Shown here one piece after another: positions 6,285-56,497 of a stretch of 56,497 nt of DNA. Position numbers and translations under genes: made by a program. The stretch is from Woeseiaceae bacterium (GTDB lineage Bacteria > Pseudomonadota > Gammaproteobacteria > Steroidobacterales > Woeseiaceae): positions 1 to 56,497 of the forward strand of contig JASJCH010000022.1 in NCBI GenBank assembly GCA_030066075.1, written 5' to 3'. The notes under the pieces are model-generated. The model saw nothing but the letters and a program-made list of their open reading frames with translations, was not told the origin of the DNA and ran no database searches. How positions within the stretch are numbered: the stretch's first letter is position 1; every line of letters starts with the position of its first letter.

Positions 6285-7956
6285 TACGGCTCTCCAGGAA
6301 GGCAACAACCTCGCCAGCCTCGAGCGGCTGGCAAAAGTGGAAGCCCTGCAGCCTGTCGGCGCCAAGCCCCGTCAAGACCTCAGTCTGCTCCTCGGTCTCG
6401 ACGCCTTCGGCGATCGCTGTCAGGTCGAGGGCGTGCGCCAGCGAGATTGCCGCATGGCAAGCCGCCTTGCCGCGTGGGTTGCTGCCGATCTGCGCGACCA
6501 GCGTGTTATCGACCTTGATCCCGTCCACGCCGCTTTGCGTAAGCTCGGCGATCGAAGATGGTCCCAGGCCATAGTCATCCACGACGAGGCCGACGCCGAG
6601 GGACCGCAGCATGTTGCACACCTCGAATCCCGAGACCGCGTCCCGGCACAGGGTCTTCTCCGTGAATTCGGTATCGATACAGTCCGGCGCGAGGCCGCTC
6701 GCGTCGAGAGCGCCGGCGATGCGCTCCGCGAGGTCGGCACGCGCGAATTCCTGCAGGGAGAGATTGACCGACAGGCGCAGATCGTCGAAGCCGGCGTCGC
6801 GCCAGGTCCTGAGCTGCTGACAGCAGGTGCCCAGCACCCAGTCCCCGATCGGCAGTATCAGGCCGGTCCGCTCGGCGAGCAGTATGACCTTTCTCGTCGA
6901 CTGGTTCGCCACCAGGGACTCCGGCCAGCGGAGCAATGCCTCGACAGCCGTTACCCGACCGCTGGCCGCGTCGACGACCGGCAGGAAGTTGAGCGTGAAT
7001 TCCTCGCGTTCGAGCGCCGCCCTGAGTTCGAATTCGAGATCCTGGCGCTGCAGAGAGCGTAGCCTCACCGTGCCGCTGTGAAACACGACAGAACTGCTGC
7101 GACCCGTTCGCGCGTCTTCCATTGCGGCCGACGCGTGCTCGCAAAGCGTTTTGACGTCCTTGCCATCCTGGGGCAACAGGGCAATGCCGGCGCAGGCGCG
7201 CACCTTGACCGCGTTGCCGTTGACGTACACGGGCTCCTGCAGCCTGGCCGTCAGTCGCGCGGTTACGGCCTCGGCGTCTTCTCCGCCGTGGATGCTTGGC
7301 AGGACGACCGCGAACTGGCGATAGTCGATCCTTGCAACAATCGAGCGCCGCTCCGGGTCGGTCTCATCGGCCGCGTTCGGGCCGCGCAGCTCGGCTGTGA
7401 GGCGCGAGCCCAGCTCGCGGAGGATACTGTGCAACTGGCCGTGTCCGAAGGCACCGCGCTGCTCCTCGATCTCGTCAATATGGATGAAGATCACCGCGGC
7501 GCGCTGTTCCTTGAGGCACTGTTGATCGACGATATCGGCGAGTTCGTCGAGGAGGAACTCCCGGTTCGGCAGGTCCGTCACGTCATCGACATAGGCCAGC
7601 TGCTGCATGCGCGAGAGCGCGCCCGCCGGCTGCGAGGCATCCCGAACGATCAGCAGAACCTTGTTGCGGCCCTGGGCGACATAGATGAACTCGCTGCTCG
7701 GCGCAGGTTCCTGCCCGGGTATCTCTTCGGCGAAATACTCGCGGCTGCGCAGCGCGCGCCGCAGGTTCTGTCGAATGCGGGCCGTGGTGGCAGTCGGCCA
7801 GAGGTCGTCGATATTGCCCGGGTTGAGGCCGGTCTCGTCGGACTGCAGCAGCTGCTCGATCGAGCCGTCTCCGGTGACGATCATCGCCATGTGGCCGCGA
7901 GTGGCCTGGACGCCAACGGGTTCGGCCGACAGTACATGATCGGGGGTCGTGCTCAT
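6277..7956 (-). CDS. PAS-like / degenerate GGDEF / EAL protein, probable c-di-GMP phosphodiesterase
   Basis: This 559-residue protein is the first gene of the minus-strand signalling operon. The N-terminal 130 residues look like a short sensory (PAS-like) segment. Next comes a GGDEF-fold domain (VDDVTDLPNREFLL) in which the signature is YRQFA, so it cannot be a normal cyclase. The EAL domain keeps VEALLRW (Glu about 339), SVNLS, AEGVET and QGF, but two canonical motifs are altered: LExTE reads TEFTE, and DDFGTG reads DDYGLG. Phosphodiesterase activity is plausible but less certain than in the next gene. The stop overlaps the next ATG (ATGCCTGA), a sign of coupling. A FliA-type promoter lies about 60-90 bases upstream. 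Confidence 0.88.
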   Translation of the reverse strand: MSTTPDHVLSAEPVGVQATRGHMAMIVTGDGSIEQLLQSDETGLNPGNIDDLWPTATTARIRQNLRRALRSREYFAEEIPGQEPAPSSEFIYVAQGRNKVLLIVRDASQPAGALSRMQQLAYVDDVTDLPNREFLLDELADIVDQQCLKEQRAAVIFIHIDEIEEQRGAFGHGQLHSILRELGSRLTAELRGPNAADETDPERRSIVARIDYRQFAVVLPSIHGGEDAEAVTARLTARLQEPVYVNGNAVKVRACAGIALLPQDGKDVKTLCEHASAAMEDARTGRSSSVVFHSGTVRLRSLQRQDLEFELRAALEREEFTLNFLPVVDAASGRVTAVEALLRWPESLVANQSTRKVILLAERTGLILPIGDWVLGTCCQQLRTWRDAGFDDLRLSVNLSLQEFARADLAERIAGALDASGLAPDCIDTEFTEKTLCRDAVSGFEVCNMLRSLGVGLVVDDYGLGPSSIAELTQSGVDGIKVDNTLVAQIGSNPRGKAACHAAISLAHALDLTAIAEGVETEEQTEVLTGLGADRLQGFHFCQPLEAGEVVAFLESRNA

Positions 7957-8022
7957 GAGGCAGCTGTCGCGGCAGTCCTTTTTGCGAACATCTCGAGGCT
8001 ACTTATAGTCGCTATGGCATGG

Positions 8023-8049
8023 TTATCGGCATATAACCAGCAGACTTAA
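8023..8049 (-). promoter_or_regulatory. Probable FliA (sigma-28) promoter of the c-di-GMP operon
   Basis: Read on the minus strand, TTAAGTCT (8049-8042) is followed after exactly 11 bases by GCCGATAA (8030-8023). The E. coli FliA consensus is TAAAGTTT, N11, GCCGATAA: the -10 box is perfect, the -35 box matches at six of eight positions, and the spacing is exact. Transcription would start near 8015 and enter the EAL gene at 7956. This would place the operon in the flagellar class III regulon. Confidence 0.6.
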
Positions 8050-8071
8050 GGGCGCATTCTCGACTTTTTGC

Positions 8072-8100
8072 TTGTCTTTTCGGCCACTTGCGGCTAATTT
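8072..8100 (+). promoter_or_regulatory. Probable sigma-70 promoter of the ileS T-box leader
   Basis: TTGTCT (8072-8077), a 17-base spacer and TAATTT (8095-8100) form a moderate sigma-70 promoter. Predicted initiation near 8105-8108 coincides with the first paired bases of T-box Stem I, which supports the assignment. Confidence 0.45.
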
Positions 8101-8102
8101 CC

Positions 8103-8371
8103 GGGGCAAGACGTCGATGGGGACGAACAGGCGGGCCATTCAGGCCACAGCGACCGGGGGAGGGTGCGAGCCCCGGGCCGGAATCCGCCGAATATCACCC
8201 CGGAGTCGCTGCCCGAAAGCCCGCGAGTAGGCGCAGCCGGCTGGCCCACGAGACGGGCGTCGGGTCGCAGGACCCAGGAGGCGACCGCCGCGAGGCCGTC
8301 GTGAAACCGGGTGGTACCGTGATGTGAATTCATCGCCCCGGGCGCAGATTGCGCCCGGGGCTTTATTTTTT
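8103..8371 (+). promoter_or_regulatory. T-box riboswitch, isoleucine specifier, transcription-terminating, upstream of ileS
   Basis: Stem I can be folded by hand. The base is GGCA/TGCC plus GAC/GTC (8105-8112 with 8205-8213), then a kink-turn-like internal loop, then GGGG/CCCC (8119-8122 with 8198-8201). The specifier loop has AUC at 8194-8196 followed by A. Above it are GGCGG/CCGCC, ATTC/GAAT, GGCC/GGCC and an apical region with GGGTGCGAGCC. A Stem III hairpin GGGTC/GACCC lies at 8262-8275. The antiterminator pairs CCGGG (8307-8311) with CCCGG (8337-8341) and GTGATG with CATCGC, and holds the seven-base bulge TGGTACC (8312-8318). UGGU can pair with an ACCA tRNA end, which fits the A73 discriminator of tRNA-Ile. 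The competing terminator begins at 8335. Uncharged tRNA-Ile should permit ileS transcription. Confidence 0.9.
8335..8371 (+). terminator. Regulated intrinsic terminator of the ileS T-box
   Basis: A perfect 12-base stem, GCCCCGGGCGCA with TGCGCCCGGGGC (8335-8346 and 8350-8361), has a three-base loop and is followed by TTTATTTTTT. Its 5' arm shares bases 8335-8341 with the antiterminator, so the two structures exclude each other. Confidence 0.92.
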
Positions 8372-8372
8372 G

Positions 8373-8396
8373 GTAGGAGCGCGCCATGCGCGCGAT
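8373..8396 (+). repeat. REP-like half element between the T-box terminator and the ileS start
   Basis: GTAGGAGC followed by the hairpin GCGCGC-CAT-GCGCGC and GAT resembles the first half of the two longer copies at 29992 and 50044, with diverged stem bases. It ends immediately before the ileS Shine-Dalgarno sequence at 8397-8402. Confidence 0.45.
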
Positions 8397-8408
8397 GGGA
8401 GGCTGAAC

Positions 8409-11400
8409 TTGCCATTCAAGGAAGTATCCACGCGTTACAACGGGCCGGCTCTCGAGGAAGACGTGCTGGAGTTCTGGCGCGAGCACGACACGTTCGCGAA
8501 GACGCTGCAACAAAGCGAGGGCGGCCCGCAGTTCAGCTTCAACGAGGGTCCGCCGACGGCGAACGGCAAGCCCGGCATCCACCACGTGCTCGCCCGCAGC
8601 TTCAAGGATGCCTTCCCGCGCTACAAGACCATGCGCGGCTACCACGTGCCGCGCAAGGCCGGCTGGGACACCCACGGCCTGCCCGTGGAGCACGAGGTCG
8701 AGAAGCACCTCAAGAACGAGGGGCTGATCGAGAGTTACGACAAGGACGAGATCGAGCAGAAAGTCGGTATCGCCGAGTTCACGCGCCTGTGTCGCGAATC
8801 GGTCATGACCTACATCAACGACTGGGAGCGCATGACCGAGCGCATGGGCTTCTGGGTCAACCTGGACGAAGCCTATTACACGCTCAACAACTCCTTTATC
8901 GAGTCGGTCTGGTGGCTGTTGAAGGAAATCTGGGACAAGGACCTCGTTTACCGCGGCTACAAGGTTGTCCCCTACGACCCGCGCATCGGCGCGACGCTGT
9001 CGTCGCACGAGCTCGCGCAGGGTTACCAGGACACCGAGGATCCTTCGATCACGGTGCGCTTCAGGGTCGAAGGCGAAGAGAACACCTCGATACTGGTCTG
9101 GACGACGACGCCGTGGACGCTGCCGTCGAACCTGGCGCTGGCCGTGGGTGCGGACATCGACTACAGCTATTGCCAAGTAGAGGGTGAGACGCTGATCCTC
9201 GCCGAGGCGCTGCGCGAAGAGGTCATGCGCGATCTCGAGCACACCGTCACGAAGACGGTCAAGGGCGCCGAACTGGTCGGCACACGCTACGAGCGCCTGT
9301 TCGACTACCTCGACGTCGATTCCGATGCGACGTTCCAGGTCTATGCGGCCGACTTCGTCAGCACCGAGAGCGGCACCGGCATCGTCCACACGGCGCCGGC
9401 CTACGGCGTCGACGACCTCCTGTTCGGCCAGGAGCACGGATTGCCCGTCGTGCACGGCGTCGGGCTCGACGGCAACTTCCTGGACGAAGTCGAGCCCGTC
9501 AAGGGCATGTTCTTCAAGGACGCCGACAAGCCGCTGATCCGGATTCTCAAGGACCGCGGGCTGATGTTCCGGTCCGAGCGCATCACCCACAGCTACCCGT
9601 TCGGCTGGCGCACCAAGGACCCGATCATCTACTACGCCAAGAACGCCTGGTACATCCGCACGTCACAGTTTCGCGAGCGCATGGTCGAGCTCAACAACAC
9701 GATCAAATGGGTGCCCGAGCACATCAAAGAGGGGCGCTTCGGCAACTGGCTGGAGAACAACATCGACTGGGCGCTGTCGCGCGAGCGGTTTTGGGGAACC
9801 CCTCTCCCGGTTTGGACGGACGGACAAGGTGACTATGTTTGTATTGGTTCGGTAGAGGAGTTGAGCGAACTCGCAGGCAAAGACCTCTCCGACCTCGACC
9901 TGCACCGACCCGCCGTGGACGACATCACGTTCGAGAAAGACGGCAAGACCTGGCGGCGCGTGCCCGAGGTCATCGACTGCTGGTTCGACTCGGGGGCCAT
10001 GTCCTACGCGCAGTGGCACTACCCGTTTGCAAACCAGGACAAGTTCGACAAGCACTTCCCGGCTGATTTCATTTGCGAGGCCATCGACCAGACGCGCGGC
10101 TGGTTCTACACTCTGCATGCGATCGCGACGCTCGTCTCGGACAGCGTGGCGTACAAGAACTGCATCTGCCTGAGCCACATCGTGGACAAGGACGGCAAGA
10201 AGATGTCCAAGTCGCTGGGCAACATCGTGGATCCCTACGATGTCTTCGACACGGTTGGCGCCGACGCCCTGCGCTGGTACTTCCTTGCGCGCCTGTCGCC
10301 GGACGTGCAGAAGCGCATCTCGGTCGATATCGTTGCCGACGTCGCCAGCTCGTTTATCAACACGTTCTGGAACACCTACGGTTTCTTCGTGCTGTATGCG
10401 CGGCTCGACGACGTCGACTTCAACCGCCACGTTGCGGTGGAGGACCGTCCGGAGATCGATCGCTGGGCGCTGGCGTTGTTGCACCAGACCATCACGGCCT
10501 GCACCGAAGCGATGGACGACTACGACGCCAAGCGCGCCGGCGACGCCATCGAGTCTTTCGTCGATCAGCTCAGCAACTGGTACGTGCGCCGCAATCGCCG
10601 CCGGTTCTGGAAGTCGACGGACCCCGAGGACAAACACGTCGCCTACCTGACGTTGTACGAATGCCTGACGGGAGTCACCGAACTGATGGCCCCGTTCGTG
10701 CCGTTCCTGGCCGAAAACGTGTACCAGAACCTGGTGCGCACCGTGAACCCGGATGCGCCCGAGAGCGTCCACATGTCGAGCTGGCCCGAGGCGGATCCCG
10801 CCTGGAAGGACGACAAACTGCTGTTCAAGATCGGCGTCGTGCAGAAGGTGGTCGGCCTCGGCCGCGCGGCGCGCGGCCAGTCAGGCGTGCGAACGCGCCA
10901 GCCGCTATCGCGGCTGCTCGTGAGGGCGCCGTCAGAAGAAGCGCGCGCGGCGCTCGAGCAGAACCAGGACCAGGTGCTCGAGGAGCTCAACGTCAAGGCG
11001 ATCGAGTTCATTGCCCGCGACGCGAGTCACGTGACTTATCGCATCAAGGTCAATACGCCGTCGCTTGGCAAGAGGGGACTTGGCCGGAAGATCCCCGAGA
11101 TTCGCAAGTGGCTCGAGCAGGAGGCCGACGGCGCCGATATTGCGCGCGCCGTCGCCCAGGGTGAGCCTTATCCGTTGCCGATGCTCGACGAGCCGCTGCC
11201 CGCCGCCGATTTCCTCGTGGAGACCGAGGCCAGCGAGGGCTTCGCCTGCGCCGAGGAGGCGGGCTACCTCGTGGAACTGGATACGGCGCTCAGCGACGAG
11301 CTGCTGGACGAGGGCGTGGCGCGCGAGCTCGTGCGGTCGGTCCAGGATGCGCGCAAGCAGGCCGGTCTGGAGGTTTCCGACCGGATCGTGCTCGGCGTTT

Positions 11401-11561
11401 CGGGGTCCGCGGGGGTCGAGAAGGCGCTCGCAGTGCACCGTGATTATGTCATGGTGGAGACGCTGGCGACCGGTTGGGAGACCGGGCAGGCAGCGGCCCT
11501 GTTCAGCATCGATCGTGAGCTTGGCGACGAGAGCTGGACTGTGGAATTCCGCAAGGCATAG
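8409..11561 (+). CDS. ileS: Isoleucyl-tRNA synthetase, type 2 (IleRS2), GXHH variant
   Basis: IleRS charges tRNA-Ile with isoleucine. I chose TTG at 8409: GGGAGG at 8397-8402 is six bases upstream and the protein then starts PFKEVSTRYNGP, as in relatives (1050 residues). The protein is of the type-2 family (Thermus/Bacteroidetes/clostridial, including mupirocin-resistant enzymes), with GPPTANG, WDTHGLPVE, an editing domain from about residue 190 to 390, KMSKS at 598-602, and the NWYVRRNRRRFW tRNA-binding region. The class I HXGH signature is swapped to GIHH (residues 56-59), a variant reported in hyper-mupirocin-resistant IleRS2 enzymes. The usual proteobacterial neighbours ribF and lspA are absent. 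Expression is controlled by the T-box just upstream. Confidence 0.96.
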   Translation: MPFKEVSTRYNGPALEEDVLEFWREHDTFAKTLQQSEGGPQFSFNEGPPTANGKPGIHHVLARSFKDAFPRYKTMRGYHVPRKAGWDTHGLPVEHEVEKHLKNEGLIESYDKDEIEQKVGIAEFTRLCRESVMTYINDWERMTERMGFWVNLDEAYYTLNNSFIESVWWLLKEIWDKDLVYRGYKVVPYDPRIGATLSSHELAQGYQDTEDPSITVRFRVEGEENTSILVWTTTPWTLPSNLALAVGADIDYSYCQVEGETLILAEALREEVMRDLEHTVTKTVKGAELVGTRYERLFDYLDVDSDATFQVYAADFVSTESGTGIVHTAPAYGVDDLLFGQEHGLPVVHGVGLDGNFLDEVEPVKGMFFKDADKPLIRILKDRGLMFRSERITHSYPFGWRTKDPIIYYAKNAWYIRTSQFRERMVELNNTIKWVPEHIKEGRFGNWLENNIDWALSRERFWGTPLPVWTDGQGDYVCIGSVEELSELAGKDLSDLDLHRPAVDDITFEKDGKTWRRVPEVIDCWFDSGAMSYAQWHYPFANQDKFDKHFPADFICEAIDQTRGWFYTLHAIATLVSDSVAYKNCICLSHIVDKDGKKMSKSLGNIVDPYDVFDTVGADALRWYFLARLSPDVQKRISVDIVADVASSFINTFWNTYGFFVLYARLDDVDFNRHVAVEDRPEIDRWALALLHQTITACTEAMDDYDAKRAGDAIESFVDQLSNWYVRRNRRRFWKSTDPEDKHVAYLTLYECLTGVTELMAPFVPFLAENVYQNLVRTVNPDAPESVHMSSWPEADPAWKDDKLLFKIGVVQKVVGLGRAARGQSGVRTRQPLSRLLVRAPSEEARAALEQNQDQVLEELNVKAIEFIARDASHVTYRIKVNTPSLGKRGLGRKIPEIRKWLEQEADGADIARAVAQGEPYPLPMLDEPLPAADFLVETEASEGFACAEEAGYLVELDTALSDELLDEGVARELVRSVQDARKQAGLEVSDRIVLGVSGSAGVEKALAVHRDYVMVETLATGWETGQAAALFSIDRELGDESWTVEFRKA

Positions 11562-36207: not shown

Positions 36208-38967
36208 ATGAACAGGCAGTCTCGACATGGATTTCGAATCGCCGCGCTGATTTCAGCGGGGGCGATAGTTGCTGCGTGCAGCCAGGGAGATGGCGTCAGC
36301 ATCGGAACGGGGCAGGATGCGGATCCTGTGGTTATCGATTTTCCGATCGCCTACATACGCGCCCCGATCCCGACGGATGACGACGGTAACTTCGAGCAGG
36401 AAGACCTGCGCGAGCAGATTACCTTTGATTTCGGCGCCGACCTCTACTATCGCGATCGGGCTTCCCCGAGCGCCGAGGCCATCAACATCACCGGCGAACT
36501 GACGCAAGGTCTCGCCGCGATTCGCGACGTCGAGATTGCCTATGACGGTAGCGCGCTGGTGTTTGCGATGCGCTTCCCGTTCGACCCGGACGTCGATGAA
36601 GAAGACCTGCCGACCTGGAATATCTGGAAGTACACGTTTGAAGGCGCCGTGCTGGAGCGCGTCATCACTTCCGATCTGACCGCCGAGATCGGTCATGACA
36701 TCATGCCGAAGTACCTGCCGGACGGCCGCATTATCTTCGCATCGACGCGCCAGACGCGCTCGCAGGCCGTGCTCCTCGATGAAGGCAAGCCCGGCTTTCC
36801 GGCCATGGACGAGGATGAGAATGAGTTCGCATTCAACATCCACATTATGAACGACGACGGCACGGGCGTTGAGCAGGTTACGTATAACCAGAGCCACGAT
36901 CTCGATCCCGCGCCGATGGCAAATGGCCAAATCGTATTCTCGCGCTGGGACCACGCGGGTCCCAACGACGAAATGAACCTCTACCGCATGAACCCGGACG
37001 GTTCTGGCATCGAATTGCTGTACGGCGCCCAGAGTCACGATACGGGCACCAACGGCGACACGATCCAGTTCAGCCAGCCGCGCGAACTCGAAGACGGCCG
37101 CGTCATGTCACTGATTCGCCCGTTCACCGACACCGAAGGTGGCGGCGAACTCGTAACGATCGATGTGCAGCAGTACCTCGAGAACACGCAGCCGACCGCG
37201 CCGAATATCGGCATCCTCAACGGGCCTGCGCAGGAAGATGCGACGGTCAACGATGTGTCGACCGAGCCCGGCGTGCCCTCCATCGGAGGCCGCTACGCAT
37301 CGGTATACCCCATTCTCGACGGCTCCGGGCGCCTGATCGTGAGCTGGAGCCAGTGCCGCCTGCTCGAGCAGCTGGAGGACGACCTTGACCCGCTGACCGA
37401 GGACACGGCGGTACGGCCGTGTACCCCGGAGCGTCTCGCGATGCTGTTCGTTCAGCCGGATCCCGACAACCCGGTCACGCCTGATGTCGGCAGCTACACG
37501 ATCGCGCCGCCGCTCTATGGCATCTGGATGTACGATCCGAGCGACGACACGCAGCTACCGATCGTGCCTGGTGAAGAGGGCTTCGTCTTCACCGAAGTCG
37601 TCGCGGCCGACCCGAAGGTTGCGCCGCCCGCAATCCCGGACGGCTCCAACGTATTCTTGCTCGACCCGACGATCGCAGATGCCGGCGAGGGTGTTATCAA
37701 CATCCGCAGCGTCTACGACTTCAGCGGCGTCGACAATTTCAATATCCCGGCCATGGCCGATCCGCTGCAGACCCCGGCCGCCGCTCGCCCGGCGCGCTTC
37801 CTGCGGATTGAAAAAGCCGTGTCGATCCCCGACGAGGATCTCATCGATCTCGACAATACGGCGTTCGGCGTCACAACGGCCTTCGGCATGAAGGAGATCG
37901 TCTCCTACACGCCGATTGAGCCCGACGGCTCGGTCATGGTGAAGGTGCCGGCTAATGTGGCGCTGCAGCTGAGCATTACCGACGAGAACGGCATGCGTAT
38001 CTCGGCGCGCCATACCAACTGGATATCGGTGCGCCCGGGCGAAGAGCTCAAGTGCCAGGGTTGCCACGATGGCACCAGCGGCCTGTCGCACGGTCGTCGT
38101 GACGCGTTCACCTCGGCGTATGCGGGCGCACAGCCCGGCTGGCTCGAATTCCCGAACACGGACCTGCAGTGGTTCATCAATGAGCCTGGCGAGACCATGG
38201 CCGAAGTTCGCGCGCGCGTTACGTGCACCAACGCTGGCGGCGTTTGTGACGCGACGACGTCTGTCGAGCCTTCGATGAACCTCTATTACACCGATGTGTG
38301 GACCGCGGACCCGACCGTCCGCGCCAACAACCTGGACATCGACATCCGCTACACGAGCGCGGACGTCAACAACCCTGGTCTGTCGACGAACTCGCCGACG
38401 ACCCAGGCCTGCGAAGGCGACTGGCAGGCGTTTTGCCGCACGGTGATCAACTACGAGTCGATCATTCATCCGCTGTGGAGCCTGCCGCGGCCGCAGTTTG
38501 ACGACATGGGGCAACCGATCCTCGATGGCAATGGTGTCCAGGTGGATCGGCAGTGCACGCTGTGTCATACGCAGATCGATCCGGCAGACGGCATGACAGT
38601 CATCGTCCCGGCCGGTCAGCTCGAATTAACGGACGGGCTCTCGCCCGACGAACCCGATCATTTCCACGCTTATCGTGAGCTTCTGGCCGGCGATAACCTC
38701 CAGGAAGTGGTCAATGGCGCATTGGTTGATGCGCAGCAACAAGTAGATGTCGATATCGACGGGAACCCGATATTCGACGTCATCCCGATTCCGTCACCGG
38801 CAAGTGCTGCGGGTGCGCGGGCTTCGGGCAATTTCTTCGGACGATTTACAGATCCGAACAACGTGGAACACTTCGGTGTTCTGTCCAGCGCGGAGAGACG
38901 CTTAATTGCGGAATGGTTAGATGTCGGAGCCCAGTACTACAACAATCCTTTCGACGTCCCGCAATAA
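36208..38967 (+). CDS. HzsA-related diheme c-type lipoprotein with beta-propeller
   Basis: The 919-residue product has a lipoprotein signal (IAALISAGAIVAAC). Residues about 60-550 form a PD40/TolB-like propeller (ALVFAMRFPFD, DIMPKYLPDGRIIFASTR, FNIHIMNDDGTGVEQVT, GQIVFSRWDH). A beta-sandwich-like segment (VSYTPIEPDGSVMVKVPAN) then leads to the first c-heme site CQGCHDG (616-620) and, after an insert, CTLCHTQ (783-787). This order matches hydrazine synthase alpha-subunit-related proteins found in many non-anammox bacteria. No other hydrazine synthase subunit is in the window, so hydrazine chemistry should not be assumed. It heads the plus-strand operon and overlaps the next gene by 47 bases. 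Confidence 0.78.
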   Translation: MNRQSRHGFRIAALISAGAIVAACSQGDGVSIGTGQDADPVVIDFPIAYIRAPIPTDDDGNFEQEDLREQITFDFGADLYYRDRASPSAEAINITGELTQGLAAIRDVEIAYDGSALVFAMRFPFDPDVDEEDLPTWNIWKYTFEGAVLERVITSDLTAEIGHDIMPKYLPDGRIIFASTRQTRSQAVLLDEGKPGFPAMDEDENEFAFNIHIMNDDGTGVEQVTYNQSHDLDPAPMANGQIVFSRWDHAGPNDEMNLYRMNPDGSGIELLYGAQSHDTGTNGDTIQFSQPRELEDGRVMSLIRPFTDTEGGGELVTIDVQQYLENTQPTAPNIGILNGPAQEDATVNDVSTEPGVPSIGGRYASVYPILDGSGRLIVSWSQCRLLEQLEDDLDPLTEDTAVRPCTPERLAMLFVQPDPDNPVTPDVGSYTIAPPLYGIWMYDPSDDTQLPIVPGEEGFVFTEVVAADPKVAPPAIPDGSNVFLLDPTIADAGEGVINIRSVYDFSGVDNFNIPAMADPLQTPAAARPARFLRIEKAVSIPDEDLIDLDNTAFGVTTAFGMKEIVSYTPIEPDGSVMVKVPANVALQLSITDENGMRISARHTNWISVRPGEELKCQGCHDGTSGLSHGRRDAFTSAYAGAQPGWLEFPNTDLQWFINEPGETMAEVRARVTCTNAGGVCDATTSVEPSMNLYYTDVWTADPTVRANNLDIDIRYTSADVNNPGLSTNSPTTQACEGDWQAFCRTVINYESIIHPLWSLPRPQFDDMGQPILDGNGVQVDRQCTLCHTQIDPADGMTVIVPAGQLELTDGLSPDEPDHFHAYRELLAGDNLQEVVNGALVDAQQQVDVDIDGNPIFDVIPIPSPASAAGARASGNFFGRFTDPNNVEHFGVLSSAERRLIAEWLDVGAQYYNNPFDVPQ

Positions 38968-56295: not shown

Positions 56296-56497
56296 CACTT
56301 TATCCACTCATTTCTGAATGGAGCGGACTATCTCATCACCCTCAACCGAGTTGTTAGGGGCGGGACGCTCTAGCCTGTTATTAAGAACACTGAAGTTCCC
56401 AGGTAGTCTCTGCACCTTCCGACAGTGTACCGCCGGCTTGGCTCAGGATTGCCACCAGCCGAACTGCTGAGGTTTCCCTGAATTCATCCCGTTCATG
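56296..56497 (-). ncRNA. Group I intron (IC3-like) interrupting the tRNA anticodon loop, partial
   Basis: The minus strand shows all four group I core elements in order: P (AATTCAGGGAAACC, 56484-56471), Q (CAATCCTGAGCCAAG, 56451-56437), R (GTGCAGAGACTACC, 56415-56402) and S (GAGATAGTCC, 56334-56325). P4 pairs TCAGG with CCTGA, P7 pairs GACTA with TAGTC, and P3 pairs CGGGATG (56491-56485) with CGTCCCG (56367-56361). The intron ends in G (56296) right before A37, as expected for the terminal omega-G. At least 202 bases are visible, and no protein is encoded in them. P1 and P2 lie outside the window. Confidence 0.9.

Follow-up and report, generated by a model that had tools for sequence, protein, structure and literature searches.

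A full-length isoleucine T-box leader predicted upstream of type 2 ileS in Woeseiaceae-like Gammaproteobacteria

T-boxes are treated as a mainly Gram-positive trait, and the Woeseiaceae are gammaproteobacteria of marine sediments. Surveys, as far as their accessible portions extend, place T-boxes in Firmicutes, Actinobacteria, Chloroflexi, Deinococcus-Thermus and Geobacter/Pelobacter (PMC2494555, PMC3766115). The locus analysed here, in which ileS of a Woeseiaceae bacterium (assembly GCA_030066075.1) follows an apparently complete isoleucine T-box, raises the questions of whether the leader is what it seems, in whose genome it lies, how it would operate and how it came to be there. It is located in a contig of 56,497 nucleotides (JASJCH010000022.1), referred to in its entirety as the window. 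The first-pass annotation of this stretch knew of no well-described gammaproteobacterial example, a statement that is still fair but has a partial precedent in a T-box-like hisS attenuator from isolated Gammaproteobacteria, published in 2010 (PMC2965389, in its available part). No earlier report of a Woeseiaceae ileS T-box was found in the open-access literature, judged by titles and abstract openings.

Based on an Infernal search, positions 8105-8343 (+) match RF00230 along the whole model, positions 1-219 of 219 (51.1 bits, E 2.4e-10, 531 nt searched), and across the 2.58 Mb assembly no other position matches at E <= 0.001 (the leader itself has E 2.8e-10 there). The first-pass annotation had named a covariance-model score below threshold as counting against a T-box; the score does lie below the Rfam gathering score of 93, although the match is full-length. 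In agreement with this, a gathering-threshold Rfam scan of the window does not list the T-box leader, and routine annotation would thus miss it. The cut-off is a strict one, since among 14 named control genomes five have RF00230 matches and only two of those five pass. Extending the search to related genomes, as had been suggested at the outset, returned matches across the Woeseiaceae, with the leaders of four relatives above the gathering score (104.5, 103.5, 93.1 and 113.3 bits). The low score of the window leader is therefore no ground for rejection, considering the E-value, the covariation described below and the relatives above 93. We regard it as confirmed, at the level of sequence analysis, that ileS is preceded at 8105-8371 by a full-length isoleucine T-box leader, which includes a terminator of its own. 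The identity and the target gene initially assigned are borne out by the full-length match, the covariation and the AUC specifier before ileS; of the span initially given, 8103-8371, the 3' end is kept and the 5' end moves by two bases.

The host is best judged from the neighbourhood of the gene. The closest named IleRS proteins come from Woeseiaceae MAGs (best three 91, 88 and 85% identical), in a contig scan that returns relatives sharing IleRS peptide patterns and of which 80 of 100 were kept. A separate protein search covered the best 120 of 8000 matches (78-93% identity). Around the locus, 13.2 kb are collinear with a Woeseiaceae MAG at 83%, and NCBI puts the Woeseiaceae in Gammaproteobacteria. 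As a 16S search of the assembly itself found none, placement rests on these relatives, by which the genome is Woeseiaceae-like, in agreement with the gammaproteobacterial origin first assumed; the family coded f1 in our kinship code is taken to be the Woeseiaceae. Since listings of T-boxes are dominated by Firmicutes, Actinobacteria, Chloroflexi and Deinococcus-Thermus (PMC2494555, PMC3766115, in the portions available), a contig misbinned from a Gram-positive organism could be suspected, an explanation to which we give hardly any credence. It is refuted in practice by the collinear flanks and by the recurrence of T-box plus ileS2 in many separate assemblies, including a genome of 4.1 Mb in one contig (G485).

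Class I T-boxes are composed of Stem I, an AG bulge, an apical loop, Stem II, Stem IIA/B, Stem III, an antiterminator and a terminator, and the structure of the window leader carries these names as parts to which we take it to correspond. Conservation was assessed in an alignment of 51 distinct leaders, whose selection required a 5' motif and an intact T-box motif. The conservation of these two thus follows from the selection, while the AUC specifier was no selection criterion. All features lie on the forward strand. Stem I (8110-8207) consists of the helices 8110-8112/8205-8207, 8119-8122/8198-8201, 8130-8135/8184-8189, 8143-8145/8177-8179 and 8154-8159/8171-8176, with 86.6-100% of cells paired per helix, and contains GGGG/CCCC, as mapped by hand. 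Its AG bulge, AGCGA (8149-8153), is present in 50 of 51 leaders, with AGUGA in the remaining one, and the apical loop with GGUGCGAG (8160-8170) conforms to RGUGNRAG in 50 of 51. Within the specifier loop GAAUAUCA, AUC at 8194-8196 is followed by A (8197); the specifier is AUC in all 51 leaders, with A as the following base in 49, U in one and G in one.

Downstream of Stem I, Stem II (8208-8237) with a GAA...AGUA S-turn-like loop is paired in 86.8% of cells and shows two-sided changes in 7/7 pairs, AGUA being found in 34/51 leaders. The Stem IIA/B pseudoknot (8238-8258) is formed by a hairpin, 8244-8247/8255-8258, crossed by C8238-G8250 and G8239-C8249. Its hairpin is paired in 84.7% of cells, with two-sided changes in all four pairs, while the crossing pairs (CG in 49/51, GC in 51/51) are nearly invariant, so that covariation is uninformative there. 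Stem IIA/B and Stem III are separated by an extra hairpin (8262-8275; 87.9% of cells paired), which is gapped in 13/51 leaders and absent from some relatives. Stem III (8281-8302) has 82.5% of cells paired and two-sided changes in 8/8 pairs, and the antiterminator (8307-8341) is made up of 8307-8311/8337-8341, paired throughout (100%), and 8319-8324/8331-8336 (82.2%). Between these strands lies the T-box bulge UGGUACC (8312-8318), the UGGU of which is complementary to tRNA A73CCA. Immediately 5' of the leader, a promoter-like TTGTCT ... GCTAATT (8072-8099) was read by eye and is a tentative assignment; GCTA(A/G)TTT-like stretches occur at a similar place in several of eight relatives, some of them without a T-box, and a consensus promoter scan does not list 8072-8099, its single match being 7982-8009. 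All parts named in the first-pass annotation were thereby located, namely Stem I with AUC and a following purine, the apical segment, found as GGGUGCGAG, the antiterminator with its seven-base bulge and the competing terminator, to which the AG bulge is added. The anatomy is that of an ordinary class I T-box; the news is the host.

The proposed structure is supported by covariation. In the 51 leaders, standard pairs occupy 89.7% of the 2800 cells of aptamer and antiterminator, and two-sided changes affect 43 of 57 pairs and 324 cells, compared to 28.1 and 121.5 in shuffles that ignore relatedness; on each of five measures, all 500 shuffles fall short of the observed value. When the partner is displaced by 1-3 columns, a control that keeps relatedness but over which the structure is favoured through having been drawn on the window sequence, pairing falls to 34-50%. 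Helices 2 and 10 barely vary and are uninformative in this respect. The minimum-energy fold of the window leader is unexceptional (z -1.5; 19 of 200 shuffles equally good), and it is covariation that revealed the T-box structure, whereas the fold alone would have missed it.

The leader ends in an intrinsic terminator (8335-8371), with a 12-bp stem at 8335-8361, a GAU loop and the tail UUUAUUUUUU. It is the sole terminator-like site in 7950-8420, where 0.3 are expected in shuffles. As bases 8335-8341 are common to terminator and antiterminator, the two structures are mutually exclusive, as first proposed. In the 51 leaders, 90.0% of 611 terminator cells are paired; two-sided changes are found in 5/12 pairs, a value reached by 10/500 shuffles and weaker than for the aptamer, while none of the 500 reaches the cell count or the covariation score. 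At least five T are present in the nine bases after the stem in 41/45 leaders, a count from which six leaders whose hairpin contains an insert or is strongly altered were excluded; the tract is poor in L011, L012, L015 and L022. In five loci (L016, L025, L028, L063, L065), palindromic repeat-like inserts lie within the terminator hairpin and make it longer, and at L058:4906-5000 such a palindrome stands in place of what lies 3' of Stem I.

The position of this hairpin bears on whether the switch would act on transcription or on translation. Class II ileS T-boxes of Actinobacteria are translational, with a truncated Stem I and a hidden ribosome-binding site, and it is conceivable that the window hairpin is likewise a sequestrator of the Shine-Dalgarno sequence. 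In the IleRS tree, actinobacterial loci fall on the side of the Woeseiaceae, and these ileS loci often have a T-box motif; in one of them, L091, which gave no RF00230 match at E <= 0.01, a downstream hairpin holds GGAGG. Moreover, terminators are reported for only about 10% of Pseudomonadota riboswitches (PMC12452182, in the part available), so that a switch of the terminator type would be out of the ordinary in this phylum, and the four poor U-tracts among 45 leaders point in the same direction. Against this, the 12-bp hairpin is directly followed by UUUAUUUUUU, its pairing is kept in 90% of cells, and most leaders have the U-tract. The Shine-Dalgarno-like GGGAGG (8397-8402) lies beyond the terminator stem and starts 36 nt after it. 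With the ribosome-binding site free of the hairpin and a U-tract following it, we consider translational control highly unlikely.

The leader is thus best explained as a transcription-attenuating isoleucine T-box, and we estimate the probability of this explanation as a whole, mechanism and history together, at about 90%. As for the mechanism, it relies on the parts identified, on their conservation and covariation, on the mutual exclusivity of the two hairpins, on the matching tRNA of two congeners and on the co-occurrence with ileS2. A tRNA-Ile was not found in the assembly itself, which is 79.7% complete in 114 contigs. Two congeners, G427 and G441, have a tRNA-Ile with anticodon GAU and the 3' end GACCC-A-CCA, i.e. 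discriminator A; AUC is the codon read by GAU, and the U of UGGU is complementary to A73, so that the predicted fit of the fourth bulge base to A73 holds with the tRNAs of these congeners. RF00230 matches in G427 and gives no match in G441 (84% complete).

We propose that the leader operates as follows. RNA polymerase would start near 8105. In the emerging RNA, the AUC specifier of Stem I would read the GAU anticodon of tRNA-Ile, while the AG bulge and the apical loop would grip the tRNA elbow. An uncharged tRNA would pair through its ACCA end with UGGU in the seven-nucleotide bulge and hold the antiterminator (8307-8341), which takes 8335-8341 from the terminator and would allow ileS to be transcribed. 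With charged tRNA, the 12-bp terminator (8335-8361) would form instead, likely releasing an RNA of about 265 nt. In this manner the leader would respond to isoleucine.

The gene under this control, ileS (8409-11561, +), encodes 1050 aa from a TTG start placed by eye from GGGAGG, and its product is the single match over the ileS cut-off in the assembly (TIGR00392, 949 bits). It scores 893 bits against 1ile and 884 against 8c8w, compared to 399 against 8c9f and 362 against 1ffy; taken together, 1ile and the 1032-residue chains 8c8u-w/8c9d reach 873-893 bits and the 917-921-residue chains 8c9f, 8c9e and 1ffy 362-399. We take the former to be type 2 and the latter type 1, judging also from chain length. 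The T. thermophilus enzyme is named as IleRS2 in the accessible part of PMC10485003. The window product is, by this comparison, a type 2 IleRS, closer to IleRS2 than to IleRS1. GIHH replaces HIGH in the protein, and KMSKS is present. The G/AXHH form of IleRS has been tied to high mupirocin resistance or hyper-resistance (PMC10485003, same part); the window enzyme shares type 2 and GIHH for HIGH with that form, but belongs to a gammaproteobacterial clade. Both the window and L045 have a glutamate racemase gene downstream of ileS. Elsewhere, the window contains a 919-aa protein (36208-38967, +) matching the hydrazine synthase alpha middle domain PF18582 at 57.5 bits, and a group I intron (56304-56497, -; 59.6 bits), cut off by the contig end.

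The type 2 enzyme is unevenly distributed. Among 147 genomes drawn from the order, ileS2 is present in 24/24 of the window's family at 69-100% identity and in 4/22 of a second family (f187) at 65-70%, and an IleRS2-like match is found in 2/2 of a third (f189) at 37-43%; in the other 99 genomes, none of the matches listed exceeds 36% identity. In a draw from the class, 16/369 genomes have an IleRS2-type match (at least 36% identity), 14 of them outside the window's genus. Type 2 IleRS is, as far as these samples indicate, rare in the order outside the window's family. The IleRS tree, built by a quick method with SH-aLRT support only, on limited, pattern-biased sampling, with long branches flagged and without L061 (8 stops), groups Woeseiaceae and f187 in one clade (33 rows, support 100), on the side of Actinomycetota and one alphaproteobacterium (96). 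Other gammaproteobacterial IleRS2 fall into two groups, one of 11 rows with a Bacteroidota row, and one of three rows with SAR324 and a deltaproteobacterial MAG.

The T-box largely follows this family. RF00230 is detected in 22/25 sampled genomes of the genus, own genome included, versus 0/15 of other families of the order; of the three negatives within the genus, two are 64 and 76% complete and the third (G381) 93%. Of ten further, chosen genomes, six are positive: two from the genus (G427, G407), three representing other genera of the family (G485, G508, G514; 3/3) and one from f187 (G484; 1/4). The four without a match are G441, G501, G524 and G548. In G484 (L157), a gene that by eye resembles ribF ends upstream of the T-box, which in turn precedes ileS2, and in G501 (L155) and G524 (L158) the ribF-like frame runs almost to ileS2, without a T-box; among loci L132-L161, 14/30, whose N-terminal pattern did not fit, were not counted. 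Wider draws, in which stricter filters lose weak matches, gave 2/369 genomes for the class, both of the window's genus, with 0 matches in the 14 IleRS2-type genomes outside it, and 2/398 for the phylum, one of these two being the window's own genome. TGGNACC was not found in the 450 nt upstream of 13 of 14 non-Woeseiaceae IleRS2 loci, where L226 (start too early) and L229 are not evidence. The window's genome is thus no isolated oddity; the T-box is widespread in Woeseiaceae, and G484 adds an instance from a second family of the order.

Among the named relatives, some T-boxes seem to have been lost. IleRS similarity yielded 40 named loci; the antiterminator motif is complete upstream of the gene in 33, and a complete T-box is absent from seven. 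L035, L036 and L049 show no T-box trace in the 420 nt upstream of ileS; L042 and L069 are without most of Stems I, II and III, L058 has its 3' half replaced and L056 its middle. These seven are found in four places on the IleRS tree (L035/L036, L042/L069, L049/L058 and L056), which suggests repeated loss of the T-box while ileS2 stays. With the T-box lost or truncated in 7/40 relatives, and with the window leader scoring lowest among the 22 positives of the genus sample (51.1 bits), the window copy could in principle be a decaying relic. This is even less probable than translational control: every functional element is intact in the window, the chosen pairs fit its leader, though they were drawn on it, and the seven degraded copies look different from it. 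Its G+C content is 71%, and the bias correction amounts to 21.5 bits.

Because type 2 IleRS is rare in the order outside the window's family, the likeliest history is that ileS1 was replaced by an incoming ileS2 that carried its T-box. A type 2 gene would have taken the place of type 1 in an ancestor common to Woeseiaceae and some of the second family, the T-box probably coming together with it and later being lost in some lineages. Alternatively, Gammaproteobacteria may have evolved the T-box themselves or inherited it vertically, or ileS2 may have acquired it only once the gene was in place. Gene and leader are separable, as indicated by the 14 other gammaproteobacterial genomes of the class draw with an IleRS2-type gene and without a T-box match, and by G501, G524 and G548 of f187, which have ileS2 without one; these three raise the odds of this alternative, which we nevertheless hold to be unlikely, though not negligible. 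The class draw, even considering its stricter filters, contains the T-box in the window's genus only, and within the order all T-boxes whose downstream gene was read adjoin ileS2.

The second genome of the phylum draw, G749 (0.9 Mb, another class; 26.1 bits), points to a different set. In its family, whose genomes measure 0.5-1.1 Mb, RF00230 is found in 19 of 40 sampled genomes, none above the cut-off. T-box-like leaders with a UGGCACC antiterminator and a short Stem I (L198:1700-1875, L199-L217) stand directly before aspS or an AspRS/AsnRS-like gene, the gene names being read by eye. UGGC fits a G73 tRNA such as tRNA-Asp. In an all-family re-search, L199 scored 45.7 bits with RF00230 and L198 gave no match at E <= 0.01. 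The AspRS of G749 (L198) shares 95% identity with one assigned to Candidatus Enterousia avicola, an alphaproteobacterium. Judged by gene, specifier and shape, these aspartate T-boxes are apparently independent of the Woeseiaceae set.

In comparison to known systems, the window leader resembles class I T-box leaders of Firmicutes, as far as the available part of TBDB (PMC7778990) describes them, in Stem I with specifier, AG bulge, apical loop, Stem II, IIA/B and Stem III, and also in the UGGNACC antiterminator, the competing intrinsic terminator and the ileS target. It differs from them in its gammaproteobacterial host, G+C of 71%, sub-cut-off score, extra hairpin before Stem III and type 2 IleRS. 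Class II ileS T-boxes of Actinobacteria (PMC7778990, same part) share the ileS target, UGGUACC and a related IleRS; unlike these, the window leader has a long, full Stem I, a terminator with U-tract and GGGAGG outside the hairpin. The leuA T-boxes of Geobacter and Pelobacter (PMC2494555, accessible portion) also have Gram-negative hosts, which are Deltaproteobacteria, with another amino acid and another gene. The hisS attenuator (PMC2965389, in its available part) is alike in its T-box resemblance, its class and the horizontal transfer proposed for it. It is described as an unknown attenuator with a short ORF in isolated species, whereas the Woeseiaceae ileS T-box is family-wide, covarying and complete.

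In conclusion, we lean towards a reading in which an ileS2 plus T-box unit entered Gammaproteobacteria once, displaced ileS1 in an ancestor shared by Woeseiaceae and some of a second family, and served as a transcriptional tRNA sensor through most of the family's history. Along with the separate Enterousia-like aspartate T-boxes, it would show repeated T-box uptake by Pseudomonadota, hidden by the standard Rfam cut-off. The findings are a warning that taxonomic surveys at that cut-off undercount T-boxes. For the Woeseiaceae, they represent a likely case of an essential enzyme swapped along with its own regulator, and a natural test of the device with a proteobacterial polymerase and tRNA pool.
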